This document shows, in pieces, positions 33,965 through 42,801 of a stretch of DNA of 64,000 nucleotides. The notes under the pieces were generated by a model, which saw only the letters and a program-made list of their open reading frames with translations, was not told the DNA's origin and ran no database searches. Positions within the stretch are counted from its first letter, which is position 1, and each line of letters starts with the position of its first letter. The position numbers were made by a program, and so were the translations under genes. Origin of the DNA: a candidate division KSB1 bacterium (GTDB lineage: Bacteria > Zhuqueibacterota > Zhuqueibacteria > JANLFK01 > Oleimicrobiaceae); NCBI GenBank assembly GCA_024655945.1, contig JANLFK010000015.1, positions 1 to 64,000 on the forward strand. Reading direction: 5' to 3'.

Positions 33965-34475
33965 TGTCGGCCCTCCTTGCACAGCCGGAGGGGGAGCCGG
34001 GCATGTGCGTCCATGCACCCGATTCGCGCAGACAGGTATGCCTGTTCACTGTTGGCGCAGGCCTGCGTCCCCGCTCCGACCAAAGGGCCATCGTGAGACA
34101 TGCCCTTGGCCGGGACATGCGCAGTCACGCGCCTGCTTATGAGCTTGTGGCCCACTCCCTGCACGCGAGAAGCAGGAGGCTTTCCCGCACCCTCTGACAA
34201 CAACAGCGATTCCCCATACGCATTGGCCTGGTCTGTGCCTGAACAAACAGCCCGTGGCTATCCCCAACTCCCGGGGTGTTATGGTTCATGCAAACTCGCG
34301 TGCACCTGCGAGGCGTGTTTCTCTCCACTCGCAGCAAGTGCTCTCCGCCTGTTGCCGGCCATCCCCGCGCTCGCTCTTGGCGCTCAATGGTCGTGCTCCG
34401 GCGCCGGCCACCCAGAGCCGGGCCTGCTGCCCCCACGCGCATCGCCTGCGGCACTTCTGCTGACCCCAAGGCGGC
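33965..34475. other. Intergenic stretch without a recognised gene
   Basis: A 511-bp gap lies upstream of the frameshifted gene and downstream of the amidase operon. A short palindrome ACAGG-TATG-CCTGT is at 34032-34045, and a hairpin GGGCTC-TTTT-GAGCC overlaps the end of the upstream gene. No clear promoter, ORF or RNA gene was seen. Confidence 0.45.
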
Positions 34476-35036
34476 TCAAAAGAGCCCGCCCCACCGCACC
34501 GGGAGGTTTCCGCCAAAAATGAAGCCAGAGTCGCGCCGGTCGAGGAAGGCCCACACGCCCAGGCGGCCCATGGAGCCGCCCACCAGAAGGACCGGCACCA
34601 GTTCGTCCCGATCGTGGTCGCGCACCGCGCCCACACCGGCTTCGAAACGGAAAAAGGCCTCGCCTTTGATGCGCCGATAGTCCTGTGCTAACTGCCTATA
34701 GCCCGCGTAGAGCTGTTGCGTCTGCTCGATGAGGGCAGACTGCAGGCGGAAGTGCCGCTCATAAGCAGCGTTCATCCGCTCGTAGCAGGCCAGGAGGGAA
34801 TCGGCCGCTTGGGCACGACTCAAGGCAGCGCTCAGCTCCTCGCGCGCTTTGAGCGCTTCTTTCGCGGTGGCCATGGGCACGGCCAGGTAGGTCTGGCCAT
34901 TAATGTTCACCAAAAAGTTGCCGCCGCTGGAGTCCAACACGGCACACCTCTGGCCAAAAAGGCAGGGTGCGACAATTGCCACCAGCAACGCCGCGCCGGC
35001 CATGGTGGCTAAGGGATGTAGTCGGTGTCCGTGCAT
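34476..35036 (-). CDS. Exported coiled-coil protein, last gene of the amidase operon
   Basis: A 186-residue protein with a signal peptide (LATMAGAALLVAIVAPCLFGQ). A short beta segment (NFLVNINGQTYLAV) is followed by a long amphipathic helix region (about residues 55-130), then a C-terminal segment that reads as beta strands ending FIFGGNLPVRWGGLF. A signal peptide plus long helix suggests a periplasmic partner for the neighbouring membrane coiled-coil protein. ATG 35036 is preceded by GGAGGTGG. No database family comes to mind. Confidence 0.6.
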   Translation of the reverse strand: MHGHRLHPLATMAGAALLVAIVAPCLFGQRCAVLDSSGGNFLVNINGQTYLAVPMATAKEALKAREELSAALSRAQAADSLLACYERMNAAYERHFRLQSALIEQTQQLYAGYRQLAQDYRRIKGEAFFRFEAGVGAVRDHDRDELVPVLLVGGSMGRLGVWAFLDRRDSGFIFGGNLPVRWGGLF

Positions 35037-35067
35037 GTATCCACCTCCTGCGCAATGCGGGCCGTGC

Positions 35068-35487
35068 CTACCGCCTGTTGCCAAATGCCCTGCCGAATGC
35101 TTCCAGCACTTCCTCGGGGCTCATGCGTTCGATGGCCTCCACGCGCTTTTCCTTCTCGGCCTCAAGCATGAGGATGCGCCGCATGTAGGCGACCCGCTCT
35201 TTGCGCATGGCCTCCTGCGCCTCGCGCACCTCTTGTGCCGAGAGCGCATATTGCTTTTGCAGCTCTGCCAATCGCCGCTCCAGTCCTGCCAACTCCGCCT
35301 CTCTGGCCTGCAGCTGCTTGAGGAGCCGTCGCCGCCTGGCCTCGGCAAACACGGAGAAGCCGAGGACTGCAGCTAACGCCGCCAGCACAAACACCACTCC
35401 CGCCTTGACGCTCACGCGGAGCTGCCAAAGGACACCGCCCAAGATGAGCGCGCCAACGATGAGCAACGCCATGGTGTAGGCGTCCAT
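35068..35487 (-). CDS. Membrane-anchored coiled-coil protein, spanin-like in layout
   Basis: A 139-residue protein with two adjacent N-terminal hydrophobic segments (ALLIVGALILGGVLW and VVFVLAALAAVLGFSVFA), then about 90 residues of continuous heptad-like helix (LQAREAELAGLERRLAELQ). The C-terminus ends with a small conserved-looking motif (MSPEEVLEAFGRAFG). Its layout recalls inner-membrane spanins (Rz), but no sequence identity is claimed. It lies 31 bp before the exported coiled-coil gene and 3 bp after the membrane paralogue gene. Confidence 0.6.
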   Translation of the reverse strand: MDAYTMALLIVGALILGGVLWQLRVSVKAGVVFVLAALAAVLGFSVFAEARRRRLLKQLQAREAELAGLERRLAELQKQYALSAQEVREAQEAMRKERVAYMRRILMLEAEKEKRVEAIERMSPEEVLEAFGRAFGNRR

Positions 35488-35490
35488 GGA

Positions 35491-36090
35491 CTACCTCCCC
35501 TCCGGGACAGCCGCGCCTGCCTCGGCCTGCGCCTCCTTGCGCTTGCGCCGACGCTCGACCTCCTGAATCAGGCTGTGCACGGGCTCCGAGCCAAGGCCGA
35601 CAATGATGCCGCTGACCAGCATGGTCACCGCTGCGGGCAACTTCTCCAGGCGGTCGATCTGCAAATCCATGTTGAAGGTGCGCACGACGTCAATTGTGGT
35701 GACCACACATAGCGCGACCCCCAGCAGGCTGGCCACCACCCGGGTGGTCACCGCAATGGCTGCATGGCGAACGAGCTGCGGACTGATGATCGGGACCAGC
35801 CCCGAGTGCCCCGCCTTCTTGCCCAGCAGCACGTCCCTGATCAGGTAAAACAGGGCGGACGCATCACTGGCCTGGTACAAGGCCCCGCCCCCGGCACGCT
35901 GCGCAAGTCGCAGGCGTAACCTCTCCGCGCGCTTCTGCCACCAGCGATGCCAGCCGAACTTGTACTCCAGCATGTCGTAGCAGGCCATCAGCACTTCCAT
36001 GATGCGCTCCACAAGCAGAGCCAACACCAGAATGAGCAAGTACAGGTAGGTCACGTGCAGAATGACCTCAGTCGTGGTCTGATTCTCCAT
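35491..36090 (-). CDS. Three-TM membrane protein related to the amidase membrane part
   Basis: A 199-residue membrane protein from ATG 36090 (GGAGGAGCC upstream). TM1 ends with ALLVERIMEVLMACY; TM2 is about residues 105-128; TM3 carries SGIIVGLGSEPVHSLIQ. Two motifs, VERIMEV and the G-x-G-S-E-P-V-H signature, match those in the next protein upstream (TIERVLQVV and GAGAQPVHFLI), so the two are paralogues in their membrane part. The C-terminus is basic. A holin-like role is possible by analogy only. Confidence 0.65.
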   Translation of the reverse strand: MENQTTTEVILHVTYLYLLILVLALLVERIMEVLMACYDMLEYKFGWHRWWQKRAERLRLRLAQRAGGGALYQASDASALFYLIRDVLLGKKAGHSGLVPIISPQLVRHAAIAVTTRVVASLLGVALCVVTTIDVVRTFNMDLQIDRLEKLPAAVTMLVSGIIVGLGSEPVHSLIQEVERRRKRKEAQAEAGAAVPEGR

Positions 36091-36107
36091 GACCAGGCTC
36101 CTCCGGT

Positions 36108-37415
36108 TCAAACGTAGAGAAAAGGCTTCTTCTGGAAGAGGGCCAGCTCTCGACGCGCCTCTTCTGACTCTTGCCACCGGCGGCCATAGCCGGCTACCAG
36201 TTCCTGGAACAACGCGAGGGGAAAATTGGAACCGGGGCAGCTGGTGGCCACCAGCGCGCTATGGGGCACGATGGCACTGTCAAAGGCCAAAGGAATGTCA
36301 TAAAGCAGCGTCCACAGTGCCACGACGCGCGCTGCCGCATCCAGTTGGGCGTCGCTGGGCGAGCGCAGGCCATAGCTGCCGTCGTAGTTGGCAAAAGGCT
36401 GGGCTGGGTCAGTCTCGAAATTGCCGTTCAGGGCGAGGCCCAAAGAGCGCAGATTGTAGCCCCGCACATGATTGCCGTAACGATCCCAGCGGCAGAAGGT
36501 ATGGATAGAGCCGTCCTTCAGCACTACGCAATGGTAGCCTGTCACCCACCCCTTCTGCTTGATCAGACTCACCACATCGTTGAAGGTGGTGTCGCTGTGC
36601 ATGCCGGTGTGATGGAAGACGATGAGCTCCGGGTTGGCGGGCCGCAGGTGCACGTGCTCCAACGCCTCCCTGTCGATCCCACCGGAGTAGGGGACGCCTA
36701 TCACCCCCTGGCTCGAAAGCACAGGAGCTGCGCTCTGAGGAGCTCGCGCCTTCTCCTCGACGGCAGCGGCCTCTTCAGCTGGAGGCGACTTGAGACTGGT
36801 GATCTTGCGCCGCGTGATGAATTCGATAAGAAAGTGTACGGGCTGCGCCCCAGCTCCGATGAGCACACCGGTGAGCACCCAGTCCAGGCGCAGTGGGATG
36901 CCGGCCCGTGCCCCCATCAGCCTGGCCAGGAGCCCAAAGTGCGCCGCAGAGCAGACCACCACCCCCGCAAAGGCGCCGAGGATCTGCATCCAGAAGGTGC
37001 GCAAGACCTTGAGGCGGTCGGGAGCCGGCATCTCGTCAACAAGCGCTGTGCCCTCCGGGCACTTCTCCTCCAGCTCGGTCTTGCTCGTGTCGAGGTGCAA
37101 CTTCTCCAGCTCGGCCAATCGCGCGCTGAGCGAGCCCCTGAGCGCTTTGGGCAACGTCTCGCCTTCCCTGCTGAGCTTGGCCCGGATTTCCTCCAGCTCC
37201 TCCACCTGCAGGTCGAGGGCGTCACGCTCATGGCGCGCCTGCATCGCTGCGATGAGCCGTTCCGGGGCTTCGGTTGCCTGTGGAGCTAACTCCTGCGCAT
37301 GGAAGAGCACCTTGTCAAAAAGCGTTTTCACCACCTGCAGCACACGCTCGATGGTGAAGGCCAGACCCAAGGCAGCGGTCAGCGCCACCAGGATCTGCTG
37401 GTAGTCATGCTCCAT
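36108..37415 (-). CDS. Membrane-tethered N-acetylmuramoyl-L-alanine amidase (Amidase_2/PGRP fold)
   Basis: A 435-residue protein. TM1 spans about residues 8-29; a coiled coil about 50-115; TM2 145-166 and TM3 178-200 with GAGAQPVHFLIEF; a Pro/Ala linker; then an amidase domain (255-410). Zinc ligands appear as H268 or H269 in IVFHHTG, H385 in VPHSAL and C393 in TSCPGSNFP. Tyr294 in GYHCVV fits the catalytic Tyr. Such enzymes cleave the amide bond between MurNAc and the stem peptide. The topology would need the amidase domain outside the inner membrane. It lies within an operon of membrane proteins and is not with phage structural genes. Confidence 0.8.
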   Translation of the reverse strand: MEHDYQQILVALTAALGLAFTIERVLQVVKTLFDKVLFHAQELAPQATEAPERLIAAMQARHERDALDLQVEELEEIRAKLSREGETLPKALRGSLSARLAELEKLHLDTSKTELEEKCPEGTALVDEMPAPDRLKVLRTFWMQILGAFAGVVVCSAAHFGLLARLMGARAGIPLRLDWVLTGVLIGAGAQPVHFLIEFITRRKITSLKSPPAEEAAAVEEKARAPQSAAPVLSSQGVIGVPYSGGIDREALEHVHLRPANPELIVFHHTGMHSDTTFNDVVSLIKQKGWVTGYHCVVLKDGSIHTFCRWDRYGNHVRGYNLRSLGLALNGNFETDPAQPFANYDGSYGLRSPSDAQLDAAARVVALWTLLYDIPLAFDSAIVPHSALVATSCPGSNFPLALFQELVAGYGRRWQESEEARRELALFQKKPFLYV

Positions 37416-37475
37416 CGCCTGTCTTCTCCCCTGGCTGCGTGAGAATCAGAAAGGCAACTGCATGGGACTCTGCGC

Positions 37476-38027
37476 TCAACCTTTGGCGGCGGTTGTCGGC
37501 TCGGGCACGTCGAACTCGAGTCCCACCGGGTGCACCTGTTCAGAGAAGAGGCGCACCAGCTGCTCGAGCTCGGGGATCCCAACTTGGTAGAGTTCCCCCT
37601 GCTTTGTCTCGACGCAGAGCACCTTGTTGCCTTCCGTCACCACGAAGGCACGCCGCCCATTGGCCAAGACAAAATGGCCGCTGCGCACGGTGCGCGTGAC
37701 TGTGCCGCTTTTCTTCTTCACCGGGCGCCAGGGGTTGCCGCGATGCAGATCTTCCACCCAGGCTCTCGCCACGTCAGCCCCGGTGAGCACGCGCTCGCGA
37801 TACATAGGCACCTTCAAGGTCAGCTTGCCCTGGTCGAGCCTCACCGTGCCTGGCGTGCGAAGGTGATACACCCAAAGACCAATGGCGATGCACACGGCGC
37901 CGCCAAGCATGTAGGACAGCGGATTCTGTCGCCCTCTGAGTATGCCCAGGAGCATAACACAACCCAACACCACCACGCCAATGCCAGCAGCCGCGACAAA
38001 TGCGAGGACGGGAAGTGTGTAGGACAT
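37476..38027 (-). CDS. Two-TM protein with bacterial PH-like domain, first gene of the amidase operon
   Basis: A 183-residue protein. Two helices (about residues 6-29 and 37-54) are separated by a basic turn (RGRQNP). A compact beta domain follows, with strands KLTLKVPMYRERVL, GRRAFVVTEGNKVLCVETKQ split across segments and a closing helix (LEQLVRLF). That layout resembles bacterial PH domains, which often mediate envelope or stress functions. It is 60 bp upstream of the amidase gene and 80 bp downstream of a strong promoter, so it leads the operon. Confidence 0.6.
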   Translation of the reverse strand: MSYTLPVLAFVAAAGIGVVVLGCVMLLGILRGRQNPLSYMLGGAVCIAIGLWVYHLRTPGTVRLDQGKLTLKVPMYRERVLTGADVARAWVEDLHRGNPWRPVKKKSGTVTRTVRSGHFVLANGRRAFVVTEGNKVLCVETKQGELYQVGIPELEQLVRLFSEQVHPVGLEFDVPEPTTAAKG

Positions 38028-38106
38028 GGCCGCCTCCGAGGCTATGTGCAGTTCTCCCTTGGCGCGCGGCGGTCCTCAGGCCGCACGCGACCGTCTGTTC
38101 GGCCAT

Positions 38107-38135
38107 AATATACGACCTTCGCCCAAGGAAGTCAA
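38107..38135 (-). promoter_or_regulatory. Predicted strong promoter of the amidase operon
   Basis: On the minus strand TTGACT (38130-38135), 17 bp, then TATATT (38107-38112). The first gene starts about 80 bp downstream. This is among the best consensus promoters in the window. Confidence 0.75.
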
Positions 38136-38279
38136 GAAAAAGAGTGGGAAAATCAAGACCCGTTCGGGGAAATGGGCGAGGGAGTCTGCTCGCGAAAACC
38201 CGCCAAGGCCAGCTTCGGGATGCACGGAGGCTGGGCCTGCTCGGTTTGCCAGGTTCCGCGCACTGCCCGCCCAGGCAGT

Positions 38280-39533
38280 TCAGAACAGTGCCACCGCCGC
38301 AAAGGTGACCACCGACCCCTGCGCGTCCATCACGGCGTGGCGGTAGTCGAGCACGGCTCCCCCTCGGATGTCCAGCGCCTGCAGCAGAGTGTAGATGGGC
38401 GGAAATCCGCACACGCGGAAACGGTTCTGCGATGCCACCATTCCCCTGGCCACTGCCCCGGCGTCGCCGCTGGCTACGGCCTGAAGCAACTCCTGGTCGT
38501 GGCGTCGGACAAGGGCGAGGCGATTACTGTCCCCCGCCCACGGATCGCCATAGCGCGGCCCGACGTGCGACAGGTCGGCACTGGCCAGCCCGATGACGCG
38601 CCCAGGGAAGCTCTGCACTGCGCCCCGCAGCGCCTGCACAAAGTCACGGACACGCGCGCCGGCGCCATCCTCCCCGAGCACCTGCTCCGCGGAGAAGGAA
38701 CAGAGGACTGGGGCAATCTGCACCTCGGCACCAAACAGGTGTTGCAAGAAGAGCACCTGGAACTCGATGGTGTGCTCGCTGCGGTGGGCAAGTTCATCGG
38801 CGAACAGGTCGTCGCCCCATTGGCGAGCAAGGCTCTCCATGAAACCCTGGTCGGTGCGGGCTACTCCGAGCGGCGTCTGAAATGGCTTCATGGTGCCGGC
38901 GAACAGAGGAGGGAGCGGCGCATGGCTGGTGCCCAGCACAACGTAAAGGTCGGCCTTGCCCGCCGCCAGCGACTCGCGGTAGGCGCGGCCGTAGGATTGC
39001 CCTCCGGCGCGCAGGTCGATGTGCGGCACCACGCACCCTTTGAGCTGGTCCAGTTGGAAAGGCCCCCCACCGGGGCGCTCGTCCGTGGCGCCCTGGCAGA
39101 AGCTGCTTAGCAGCCGGCGGAGCTCATCCGCCTCAGCGGGGTAGCTTTGCCCTGCGTGCACACTCTCGCGCACCGGCGCGCGGCGAAAGGCCTCTTCTAC
39201 TTCCCTCCGATGTTGGGCAAAGCGCTCGTTGTCCAGCAAGAGCTGCTCGTCCAGCATGCGGACAAGCTGGCTGAGCTGCTCCTCAAAAAGAAAGCTGCCG
39301 AAACGACGCATGTAGGCCGCCCGCAGGTCCAACAAGGAGTGGTGGCCGTCCATGAACTGCAGCACATAGGCCACGTCTTCTGACACCAGCACCACACCGT
39401 CGGAGAGGTGAGTGAGGTCGTGCACCGCCACCATGTTGCGACCGCCGTGGCGCACGGGCGTCGCATCGATGAGGCGCAGCTTGGGAAACTGGGGCAGGGG
39501 CTCACTCACGCGGCGCACAGCCTCCACGCGCAA
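38280..39533 (-). CDS. Memo-like protein (AmmeMemoRadiSam system protein B) with N-terminal extension
   Basis: A 417-residue protein whose C-terminal 290 residues are a Memo domain: VVPHIDLRAGGQSYGRAY, VVLGTSHAPL, HTIEFQVLFLQHLF and LASADLSHVG, with candidate metal or active-site His residues in each. Memo is a nonheme-dioxygenase-related fold. In bacteria it co-occurs with AMMECR1 and a radical SAM protein, whose pathway is still unclear; neither partner lies here. Residues 1-115 form an added PqqD/winged-helix-like domain (SLLDLRAAYMRRFGSFLFEE). The start is TTG 39533, or nearby GTG codons (39527, 39509). It follows namZ by 24 bp. Confidence 0.8.
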   Translation of the reverse strand: MRVEAVRRVSEPLPQFPKLRLIDATPVRHGGRNMVAVHDLTHLSDGVVLVSEDVAYVLQFMDGHHSLLDLRAAYMRRFGSFLFEEQLSQLVRMLDEQLLLDNERFAQHRREVEEAFRRAPVRESVHAGQSYPAEADELRRLLSSFCQGATDERPGGGPFQLDQLKGCVVPHIDLRAGGQSYGRAYRESLAAGKADLYVVLGTSHAPLPPLFAGTMKPFQTPLGVARTDQGFMESLARQWGDDLFADELAHRSEHTIEFQVLFLQHLFGAEVQIAPVLCSFSAEQVLGEDGAGARVRDFVQALRGAVQSFPGRVIGLASADLSHVGPRYGDPWAGDSNRLALVRRHDQELLQAVASGDAGAVARGMVASQNRFRVCGFPPIYTLLQALDIRGGAVLDYRHAVMDAQGSVVTFAAVALF

Positions 39534-39557
39534 CCCCGAGAGGACGGCCGACGGAGT

Positions 39558-40811
39558 TCAATCATAAAGCAAGTATTTCTGGCGCAAGGAGAGGAAGGCC
39601 TGCAGCTCTTGACTCCACGAGGCGATGATGGCCTCCGGCGCGTCGCCACGCAGCAAGGCGGTGGTCACTGGCGTGGAGCCCGTCATGAGGCGCATGCCTG
39701 GCTCGCGGATAGTCAACTTGTCCTGGTGCAGGTCCCGCAGCGCGGCAATAAGGTGAATGCCAACATCGACCGCTCTCAAGGACTCTGGTCTGGTGACCCG
39801 CAGCCGCAAACCCTTGCAGAGCTGCCCTTCGTACTTGGGATTGGTCGCCATGCCGGGCAAGTCCACCGGCACAAAGGAGGTCGAAGCGAATGCCAGGCCT
39901 GGAAACGAGTGGGGCTGCAGGGCCTGGAGGAGCTTGGCCGTGTCGATCCACGGCGCACCGATGTTCTCGAAAGGCGCCTGCGTGCCGCGCCCCTCGGCCA
40001 CGTTGGTCGCTTCCAACAGCCCAATGCCAGGGTAGAGCTGGGCGGTCGTCGGCGAGACGATGTTCGGCGACGGCTTGACCCACGGGAGGCCGGTGTCGGC
40101 AAAGAGCATGTGACGTCGCCAGTTCCTCATGCGCACCACGGTGAGCTCTGCCTTCTTGCCGCCGGCTAGCCATCCCTCTTCATTGAAGAGGCGCGCCAAC
40201 TCGCCGACCGTCATCCCATGGCGCAGGGCAATGGGATGAATGCCCACAAAGGAGCGATTCTCCGGTGCCAACACAGGCCCTTCCACGATAACGCCCCCGA
40301 TGGGGTTGGGTCTATCGAGCACCACAAAAGGGATCTGCTGCTCGGCGGCAGCCTCCATGGCTAAGGACATAGTGCTGATGTAGGTGTAAAAGCGCGTGCC
40401 CACGTCCTGAATGTCGAACACCAGCACGTCCAGGTCACTGAGCATCTCGGGGGTGGGCTTCTTCGTCTCGCCGTACAGGCTGAGGATGGGCACGCCGGTC
40501 TTGGCGTCCACCTCGGCACCGATCTGCGCCCCGGCTTCCGCAGTGCCGCGGATGCCATGTTCCGGGGCAAACAGCTTGCTCAACGTCACCCCAGCTGCCT
40601 CATGGAGCAGATCGGCAATGTGGCGCCCTTGCCGGTCGATGCCCGTGTGATTGGTGATGACCCCCACGCGCTTACCTTTGAGCAAAGAGCAGTCGCTGGC
40701 GACCAGCACGTCGAGGCCGCTTTCCACCGGAGCAGGGGCCGGCTCTCTGGCCGGCGTGCAGCTGAGGGCGCCGAGGACCAGCAGCCACCAGCTACAGAAT
40801 CGAGCGAGCAT
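39558..40811 (-). CDS. namZ: Exo-beta-N-acetylmuramidase NamZ (DUF1343) lipoprotein
   Basis: A 417-residue lipoprotein (VLGALSCTPAR) of the DUF1343 family, whose characterised members remove N-acetylmuramic acid from the non-reducing end of peptidoglycan fragments. Motifs: VGVITNHTGID, LFAPEHGIRG, FDIQDVGTRFYTY and VLDRPNPIGG. The His/Glu-Asp set fits the catalytic region. It overlaps the end of the transglycosylase gene by 20 bp, so the two are translationally coupled. Together they could break and recycle wall fragments in the periplasm. Confidence 0.85.
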   Translation of the reverse strand: MLARFCSWWLLVLGALSCTPAREPAPAPVESGLDVLVASDCSLLKGKRVGVITNHTGIDRQGRHIADLLHEAAGVTLSKLFAPEHGIRGTAEAGAQIGAEVDAKTGVPILSLYGETKKPTPEMLSDLDVLVFDIQDVGTRFYTYISTMSLAMEAAAEQQIPFVVLDRPNPIGGVIVEGPVLAPENRSFVGIHPIALRHGMTVGELARLFNEEGWLAGGKKAELTVVRMRNWRRHMLFADTGLPWVKPSPNIVSPTTAQLYPGIGLLEATNVAEGRGTQAPFENIGAPWIDTAKLLQALQPHSFPGLAFASTSFVPVDLPGMATNPKYEGQLCKGLRLRVTRPESLRAVDVGIHLIAALRDLHQDKLTIREPGMRLMTGSTPVTTALLRGDAPEAIIASWSQELQAFLSLRQKYLLYD

Positions 40812-42801
40812 CTGTCTTCCTTCCGTCTATCGCAGAGACCAGCGGGATCCGAACAATGTCGCCCGGACGTAGCTTCTGCAGATCCTTGCCCACGTTGTAG
40901 TCCACCACCAGCCAATAGGGCACGTCGTACACGTCCCTGCACAGCGAGTAGACGTTCTCTCCTGCCACGATCTGGTGGGTGCGCACGCTGTCCACCCGGA
41001 AGCGCTGGAAAAAGTCCTCCCGAATCCCCTGGTGGTACTCGATTCTGCGGCGGCGGAACTCCTCGACGGTCACCTTGCTGAAGTTAACAAGGATGCGCTG
41101 ACCGATGTAGATATCCTCGTTTGCCTTGAGCCCGTTCAGGTTGCGCAAACGGCGCACCGGCAGGTTAAGCCAATCGGCAAAGTGGCCGATAGTCTCGTCG
41201 CTGAGCACCACCACCGTCCCGCCCACCGGATCCGGAATATCCACGTAGAAGGTATCCGGGCGCACCGCCGGTCCGTAAGGGCCAGCTGGCGCCACAGGAG
41301 TGGAAGCCGGCGCTCTCGTGCTTGCCGCTGGCTGGCCTGCGGTGTCCACGATGACCAGCGGCTGCGCCCCAGAAGCAGCACCACCTCCCTGCGCCTCACG
41401 TTCCCCACCTTTCGGCACCAGGGCCAACTTCGTCTCTGCCACAACTAACAACAGCTGTCCAGGTTGCAGCCGCTTCGCATCGTCTATGCCGTTTATGGCC
41501 ATCAGTTCCTGGATGCTCACGCCGAACCGCCGCGAGATGCTCCACATGCTGTCCCCCTCGCGCACACGATAGTACCCGGAGGCGGTCTTCTCATGCACCT
41601 GCTCTTCGGAGCGCTCCTCCTTGGGAATCTCTGCGTACAAGGCTTCGGCCACACTGGCTTTTTCTGGAGGCAACCTGAGCTCGTAGCCTTCCGGCACATA
41701 GCGGCGATCCTCAAGCACCGGGCTGCGCAGCGCAGGGTTGTAAGCCATAAACTCCTGCTTGCTCAGGCCGAACTTTCTCATCAAGGTGGAGGCCTTCACA
41801 TAGTGCGGCACCCGGAAGACCACATAGCGCAGCGGTGGTTCCGTTTCCACTGGGCCGAAGTACTTCTCTCTATTCTCCATCACATGTTTCGCCGCCAGGA
41901 ATTCCGCGTAAAAGTTGCGCGAGGCAAAACCGAAGGCGCGCCCACGATAGTTTGCAGCAATGTGGCCGAGGTCGGAGCTTTCCAACAGCTCCTGGGCCCG
42001 CTTCATGCCGTTGAGGCCGTGATTGTATGCGGTGACTGCCAGCGGCCAGTTGCCCAGTTCCTCGTAGTTCTTTCTCAGCAACTTGGCGGCAGCTTCGGTC
42101 GCTTTGATATGGTCAAAACGCTCATCGACGTCATAGTTGATCTTCAGGAACAGGCGACCGGTGCTACGCGTGAACTGCCAGATCCCTGCGGCGCCCGACT
42201 TGGAGTACGCCCGAGGGTGGTAAAGCGACTCCACCAGGGGCAAATGGACCAGTTCCTCGGGTACTTTGTGGCGACGAAGGATCTGGCGCATCTCCTCCAA
42301 GAAGCGTCCGGAGCGCCGCAGCCCCTCCATCACCGCATCTTTCTGCCCCTGCTGCCAGCGCAGGTTGGCCGCTGCCTTCCGGTACTTGTACGGATCCTGG
42401 CAGTCGCGCCACAGCAGGTAGGCGCGCTTCTCGCGACCTCGCAAGCCGCCGGTATCGATGGGCGGGTTGTGGTCAAAGTGGGTCAAAATGGCCCGATACT
42501 CATTTTCGATGGGCCTCAGGCGGGCATAGCCAGAACCCTGGCTGTGCTGCCACAAGCTATCGAGGTCGACTACCTCGTAGACGATGTCCAGCCGCTCCGC
42601 GTCGTGGAGGAGCATCTGGCGGCGGGTGTAGACGGCGTAGACCTTCGTCCAAAAGTCAACGTTGGCCTTGAGGTTGGGCGGCACCGGGAAGAGTTCCTCG
42701 CTCTCCGGCCCACCCGTGGGCAGGGCAATGCCCGCCCCCATACCCACCAACCCAATCCCCAGCAGCAAGACGATGTGCCGTGCAATGACCTGTCCTCTCA
42801 T
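40792..42801 (-). CDS. mltD: MltD-like lytic transglycosylase with three LysM domains
   Basis: A 669-residue exported protein. A signal anchor (IVLLLGIGLVGMGAGIAL) and a helical segment precede a GH23 lytic transglycosylase domain: VPEELVHLPLVESLYHP holds the catalytic Glu, and SKSGAAGIWQF and AVTAYNHGLNGMKRA are family motifs. LysM modules follow at about residues 420-465 (YYRVREGDSMWSISRRFGV), 545-590 and 625-665 (HQIVAGENVYSLCRDVY). It cuts MurNAc-GlcNAc bonds and forms 1,6-anhydro ends. ATG 42801 follows GGGAG. Downstream namZ overlaps it. Confidence 0.9.
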   Translation of the reverse strand: MRGQVIARHIVLLLGIGLVGMGAGIALPTGGPESEELFPVPPNLKANVDFWTKVYAVYTRRQMLLHDAERLDIVYEVVDLDSLWQHSQGSGYARLRPIENEYRAILTHFDHNPPIDTGGLRGREKRAYLLWRDCQDPYKYRKAAANLRWQQGQKDAVMEGLRRSGRFLEEMRQILRRHKVPEELVHLPLVESLYHPRAYSKSGAAGIWQFTRSTGRLFLKINYDVDERFDHIKATEAAAKLLRKNYEELGNWPLAVTAYNHGLNGMKRAQELLESSDLGHIAANYRGRAFGFASRNFYAEFLAAKHVMENREKYFGPVETEPPLRYVVFRVPHYVKASTLMRKFGLSKQEFMAYNPALRSPVLEDRRYVPEGYELRLPPEKASVAEALYAEIPKEERSEEQVHEKTASGYYRVREGDSMWSISRRFGVSIQELMAINGIDDAKRLQPGQLLLVVAETKLALVPKGGEREAQGGGAASGAQPLVIVDTAGQPAASTRAPASTPVAPAGPYGPAVRPDTFYVDIPDPVGGTVVVLSDETIGHFADWLNLPVRRLRNLNGLKANEDIYIGQRILVNFSKVTVEEFRRRRIEYHQGIREDFFQRFRVDSVRTHQIVAGENVYSLCRDVYDVPYWLVVDYNVGKDLQKLRPGDIVRIPLVSAIDGRKTDARSIL

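Follow-up and report, generated by a model that had tools for sequence, protein, structure and literature searches.

The window analysed here, a stretch of 64,000 nucleotides from a candidate division KSB1 bacterium, contains a compact operon for membrane and exported proteins that is laid out much like a phage lysis cassette. This raises the question of where such a layout outside any phage comes from and what it might do. An earlier note on this DNA had described one promoter driving five genes and had suggested a domesticated lysis or wall-remodelling system.

Structure of the operon

All five open reading frames and the promoter were found as the earlier note had drawn them (Table 1), with intergenic gaps of 3-60 bases from gene 1 through A, B and C to D. 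The TTGACT-17-TATATT site is the sole one of its kind in positions 34000-38500, where shuffled sequences would be expected to yield 0.6. It is among the best-conserved upstream blocks across two sister species, and both hexamers and their edges are nearly invariant in two congeneric species, in which much of the surrounding upstream DNA has diverged. Candidate promoters 5' of A at other loci were mostly no better than those in shuffled sequences, the exception being L058, and no match to RNA families was found. With respect to the nearest species, dN/dS is 0.08-0.15 for all five genes, comparable to the nearby Tex, NamZ and MltD genes; the value of about 0.09 for the module suggests strong purifying selection.

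Table 1. Features of the operon, in coordinates of the 64,000-nucleotide window
Feature	Position	Strand	Description
Promoter	38107..38135	-	Sigma-70-type, TTGACT-17-TATATT; upstream of gene 1 and the cassette; 10/12 consensus positions
Gene 1	37476..38027	-	Short membrane protein of unknown family; accessory, genus-only; bPH_5 E 0.13
A	36108..37415	-	3-TM domain, helical hairpin loop, linker and C-terminal Amidase_2 zinc amidase (residues ~240-435)
B	35491..36090	-	3-TM paralogue of the A membrane domain, predicted N-out/C-in, charged cytoplasmic tail
C	35068..35487	-	Two TMs and a coiled coil of ~80 residues, probably periplasmic
D	34476..35036	-	Signal peptide, small beta domain, 70-residue helix, four C-terminal strands; last residue Phe

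The first gene had been described as PH-like and as part of the module, and neither description is supported: its match to bPH_5 is not significant (E = 0.13), and its homologues among the 40 nearest genomes are confined to G001 and G002, both of the same genus. Judged by these homologues, gene 1 is outside the conserved unit, so that four of the five genes, in the order A-B-C-D, remain of the unit first proposed.

Further upstream on the same strand (38280-42801) are genes for Memo, a NamZ exo-muramidase and an SLT/LysM lytic transglycosylase, an arrangement kept within the genus, and this stretch possibly forms a wider wall-turnover cluster with the cassette.

Conservation and phyletic distribution

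In the 40 nearest genomes, the homologues of B sit in A-B-C-D or A-B sets. A profile of A recovered 30 loci from the GTDB contig collection, none of them viral, which belong by title to about ten phyla; the titles name Calditrichota, KSB1, Deferribacteres, Bacteroidota, Ignavibacteriales, Nitrospiraceae, Aminicenantes, Acidobacteriota, Gemmatimonadetes, CSSED10-310, Desulfatibia, Gammaproteobacteria and Caldisericaceae. Nearly all of these loci are from MAGs under their submitters' titles, so individual taxon assignments can be wrong; Neptunicella marina S27-2 is a named strain with the cassette (L069, on a contig of 60.6 kb). With two loci left out of the count because the contig end falls inside the cassette (L049 and L070), the A-B-C-D order is intact in 25 of the 28 others, including one locus with a cut D (L042) and two with a diverged D (L066 and L068), and the remaining three (L047, L063 and L067) have A-B without C-D. 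The genes are thus not scattered in relatives, and the layout outside any phage is conserved well beyond the source genome. The neighbours of the cassette change between lineages, which indicates that it is self-contained, and no phage gene was recognised when the flanking genes of the loci were inspected by reading. Pairwise distances of the four families are correlated across 18 loci (r 0.72-0.87, Mantel p <= 0.0005), a correlation of which shared ancestry alone gives some part. Together, the shared order in 25 loci, the low dN/dS and the co-varying family distances exclude a chance arrangement.

A is present in 19/82 genomes of the source phylum, in 1/296 genomes of the order of Neptunicella and in 1/297 genomes of the phylum of L048, the sole match in each of the latter two being the genome used as centre. 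The tree of A does not track the phyla cleanly, and the simplest reading of this pattern is horizontal spread of the cassette, within the limits set by MAG binning errors and paralogues. One Caldithrix sp. MAG has a complete A-B-C-D (L058) and in addition an A-B pair (L067) that belongs to a different subfamily. At two loci A is broken into two reading frames, by either a true frameshift or an assembly error (L059:7974-9251 and L071:2-986). In a separate branch (L138-L140) a small HU-like gene lies near A-B; two of its members (L138 and L140) have diverged genes 3' of A-B, for a two-TM protein and an exported protein, which are unrecognisable as C and D by sequence.

Scans with Pfam, PHROG, NCBIfam and PADLOC described nothing of the cassette beyond the amidase domain; the PADLOC scan for known anti-phage defence systems gave nothing above noise. 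A match of the membrane parts to a known transporter or secretion family was looked for and not found, and no published description of the cassette was found in the open-licence literature.

The membrane-tethered amidase and its paralogue

The last 200 residues of A match Amidase_2 (PF01510; 63.5 bits against a curated cut-off of 26, E 3e-17), and a profile of 27 A homologues retrieves a LysC-type endolysin (6srt), PGRPs and T7 lysozyme from the PDB. The zinc-ligand positions H268/H269, H385 and C393 are invariant in 27/27 homologues, and Y/F294 and K/T391 occupy the expected catalytic positions of the superfamily. The active site is by these signs intact, and the fusion of a 3-TM protein to a zinc amidase stands as earlier described. 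The NCBIfam AmpD model matches 1/27 homologues, and weakly, which does not place A in that family. The AlphaFold2 model of A as a single chain (mean pLDDT 84.8) places a helical hairpin (49-105) between TM1 and TM2, shows TM3 interrupted at the conserved GxG, and continues through a disordered linker (206-234) into a confidently predicted amidase. Fold searches of viral structures with A matched only endolysin amidase domains; a Lentibacter phage amidase among the fold-search matches was set aside, cobavirus endolysins being free of membrane anchors according to its paper.

Sequence comparison confirms that B, at ~200 residues with a long cytoplasmic loop, is a paralogue of the membrane part of A that lacks the amidase. 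In both, TM1 ends with a conserved ER and TM3 with a conserved GxGxxPxH, and no Pfam match is common to more than one B homologue. Across 29 B homologues the net charge of the N-terminus is negative in 22 and positive in none, the TM1-TM2 loop is positive in 27, the TM2-TM3 loop is more often negative (13) than positive (2), and the tail is positive in 28 and negative in none. Among the 27 homologues of A, the N-terminus is negative in 17 and positive in one, and the segment after TM3 is positive in 21 and negative in one. An apparent cleavable signal peptide could also be read on B of L066 and L068 and on several stand-alone B-like proteins. This charge pattern and these signal peptides suggest that both A and B are oriented N-out/C-in, which would make the amidase of A face the cytoplasm. 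The cysteine content agrees with this prediction (1.68% in the amidase, against 0.47% in mature D and 0.04% in the coil of C), whereas the stretch preceding TM2 of A, net negative in 16/27, does not fit it cleanly.

Three TMs arranged N-out/C-in, as predicted here from the charges, correspond to the topology of class I holins, and in this respect the holin-like protein of the earlier note is upheld. As to family, B has no holin match above noise; it gives scattered weak PHROG hits, among which phrog_20258 and the holin phrog_1299 were too weak for use. None of the 29 B homologues matches MotA_ExbB (PF01618), and the B profile matched neither ExbB, TolQ, MotA nor other solved relatives in the PDB.

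The coiled-coil proteins C and D

C had been described as having the layout of an inner spanin. It is indeed a membrane-anchored coiled coil, but most members have two TMs, L066 and L068 having one, and thus differ from the i-spanin plan of a single TM, N-in, with a periplasmic coil. The charges of C favour a periplasmic coil, though not cleanly. Spanin profile phrog_739 matches 16/26 C proteins; class-preserving shuffles of C still match spanin PHROGs in 2/10 cases, and these hits were therefore dropped as proof of a spanin.

D is exported and contains a coiled coil, as earlier noted, and more besides. In the single-chain AlphaFold2 model (mean pLDDT 87.8, pTM 0.46) the one long helix, of period 3.46, lies between the small beta domain and the four strands, and the last residue is Phe in 17/23 D proteins, for which chance gives ~1e-19 at 4% Phe. 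A C-terminal Phe is typical of outer-membrane proteins inserted by BAM, and the modelled C-terminus of D is probably of this outer-membrane type. The D alignment contains no lipobox that would mark an o-spanin lipoprotein. In roughly half of the D proteins a single Cys directly follows the predicted end of the signal peptide, again without a lipobox; this Cys could form a disulfide between D subunits. Fold searches with D in viral and PDB libraries returned nothing significant. Known two-component spanins pair an inner-membrane protein of N-in/C-out orientation with a lipoprotein of the outer membrane (PMC6139136); given the two TMs of C and the missing lipobox of D, this pair would be a different solution, even if it does the same work.

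Relationship to known systems and origin

The closest analogy to the cassette as a whole lies in lysis modules. In the lambda S-R-Rz-Rz1 cassette the holin S105 has three TMs and is N-out/C-in (PMC10865782). The likeness extends to the order of functions, a 3-TM membrane protein of this orientation (predicted for A and B), and the succession of an inner-membrane coiled coil and a partner in the outer membrane. What sets the cassette apart from lambda is the long cytoplasmic loop of A and B together with their tethered enzyme, the second TM of C, and the predicted beta anchoring of D in the outer membrane in place of a lipoprotein. Type 10 secretion systems (T10SS) set a precedent for lysis modules on bacterial chromosomes outside phages: ChiWXYZ of Serratia and YenLC of Yersinia entomophaga combine holin-, endolysin- and spanin-type parts (PMC10847048). 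The present cassette differs from these in that B, C and D have no detected homology to their parts, its amidase is fused to a membrane domain, and it lacks a linked toxin or regulator and any visible phage ancestry. It has in common with phage and T10SS lysis cassettes a hydrolase with an intact active site and a predicted class I holin topology, and holin family membership, an i-spanin, an o-spanin lipoprotein and phage relatives are all missing. The resemblance is therefore one of layout and predicted topology and does not extend to family membership.

Individual parts have further counterparts. A shares fold and zinc-site residues with the T7 lysozyme, LysC and PGRP amidases (PF01510), but in A the amidase is joined to a 3-TM domain, its predicted orientation is cytoplasmic, and it conserves an extra motif, CRWD. 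ExbB and TolQ are built N-out with a cytoplasmic loop of ~80 residues, a short hairpin and a C-in tail. The predicted topology of A and B is common with such ExbB/TolQ/MotA stators; there is, however, no sequence or profile match to them, and the cassette has two unlike paralogues and an amidase. The predicted coiled-coil helix and four C-terminal strands of D recall YadA-type trimeric autotransporter anchors, from which D differs in lacking a Pfam or fold-search match.

Scans of viral contigs with A returned no relative, tblastn matches of A in phage records cover the amidase only, its plasmid matches are to the generic amidase domain, and B has no match in phages. The profile of B, on the other hand, detects a shorter stand-alone B-like gene in eight genomes without A. 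In seven of these, of the same phylum and comprising three families (L128-L134, e.g. L128:4131-4634), it is followed 3' by genes for a CAAX-like membrane protease, MltG (YceG, PF02618) and UvrD, and in four a gamma-glutamyltranspeptidase gene lies 5' of it. These genes share with B the 3-TM domain with ER and GxGxxPxH, but occur singly, without an amidase, C or D. Relatives of the membrane domain are thus found on chromosomes in the context of wall synthesis, which suggests that this domain is of cellular origin. The B-like proteins of these seven genomes form an undescribed 3-TM family with a signal peptide. A similar glycine-rich end of TM3 recurs in more distant 3-TM proteins (L136:8719-9387, L137:8558-8920 and L135:8413-8769), a hint of a large unannotated superfamily.

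Domestication of a phage lysis cassette, which might now release toxins or contractile particles, is the least probable of the explanations that we weighed. The layout, the membership of the amidase in the endolysin superfamily and the weak spanin-profile matches of C speak for such descent. Against it, A has no relatives in viral contigs, its phage and plasmid matches being limited to the amidase, B lacks phage matches and has chromosomal relatives beside MltG, and the spanin matches also arise from shuffled controls. The sheath gene PF04984 occurs in 0/19 cassette genomes and in 9/63 others; with a chance of ~0.08 for 0/19, this establishes no link between cassette and sheath either way and leaves avoidance unproven. 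The suggested release of contractile particles is accordingly unsupported.

Functional interpretation

We propose, at somewhat less than even confidence, that A-B-C-D is a bacterial, phage-independent module for controlled opening of the cell envelope, with whole-cell lysis and local opening for secretion or vesicles both possible outcomes. A and B would assemble in the inner membrane as a hetero-oligomer that keeps the amidase on the cytoplasmic side, away from its wall substrate, like an endolysin before holin opening, and C and D would bridge the inner and outer membranes via their coiled coils. Upon a signal, the A/B core would open, so that the tethered amidase gets to the wall, and C-D might then disrupt or join the membranes, in the manner of a holin, endolysin and spanin. 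This reading is favoured by the four parts that span three envelope layers in the order of a lysis module in 25/28 loci, the intact and Cys-rich amidase, the predicted N-out/C-in orientation of A and B with its S105-like plan (PMC10865782), the 70-residue helix and outer-membrane-type C-terminus of D, and the self-contained nature of the cassette, with T10SS as precedent (PMC10847048). Against envelope opening stand the absence of a holin match, the length of B with its long cytoplasmic loop, unlike phage holins, the two TMs of C and the missing lipobox of D, unlike known spanins (PMC6139136), the A-B sets without C-D (L047, L063 and L067) and the lack of a linked cargo or regulator. The dN/dS of about 0.09 and the conserved near-consensus promoter are easier to reconcile with a function in common use than with a lethal one.

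These same features, with purifying selection like that on housekeeping neighbours, would suit a constitutive envelope-maintenance complex, in which C and D tether the inner to the outer membrane and an amidase placed by A and B trims peptidoglycan at the contacts. This explanation, which we regard as rather unlikely, draws further on the NamZ and SLT/LysM genes upstream in the genus and on the B-like genes beside MltG in seven genomes. It needs a periplasmic amidase, so that the charge-based topology of A would have to be wrong; the positive charge after TM3 of A in 21/27 homologues and the Cys-rich amidase point instead to the cytoplasm, and the patchy distribution (19/82 genomes in the phylum, rare elsewhere) also speaks against it. 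A predicted cytoplasmic amidase would be in place for AmpD-like muropeptide recycling at the membrane, with A/B perhaps as the entry path. The NamZ and lytic transglycosylase genes and the single weak AmpD match are in keeping with this, but among solved structures it is LysC, PGRPs and T7 lysozyme, and not AmpD, that come closest; moreover, C and D are left without a role, and NamZ is a neighbour within the genus only, so that recycling seems improbable. Slimmer still are the prospects of an energised Tol/Exb-like trans-envelope motor with A and B as stators, C as a moving coil and D as the outer-membrane partner: the predicted ExbB/TolQ-like plan and the conserved charged residues at the TM1 and TM3 ends of A and B would suit it, whereas MotA_ExbB is found in 0/29 B homologues, PDB profile searches with B return no ExbB, TolQ or MotA, and a cytoplasmic amidase would be left without a role.

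Biological significance

Returning to envelope opening, it is conceivable, though we hold this fuller statement with some doubt, that the cassette is a cellular, non-viral machine, in which coiled coils link a paired 3-TM core, with its own cytoplasm-side amidase, to an outer-membrane protein held by a beta anchor; such a machine would have arisen without any contribution from phage holins and spanins and would have spread through distant diderm phyla as a set of four genes. The cassette is in any case more widespread than could be seen from the source genome alone. Were it a maintenance complex, it would be a conserved trans-envelope amidase system that the scans describe only at the amidase domain. 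If the module does open the envelope, bacteria would have arrived at a counterpart of the holin, endolysin and spanin by using parts of their own, and it would become possible to test poorly cultured phyla for programmed lysis or vesicle release.
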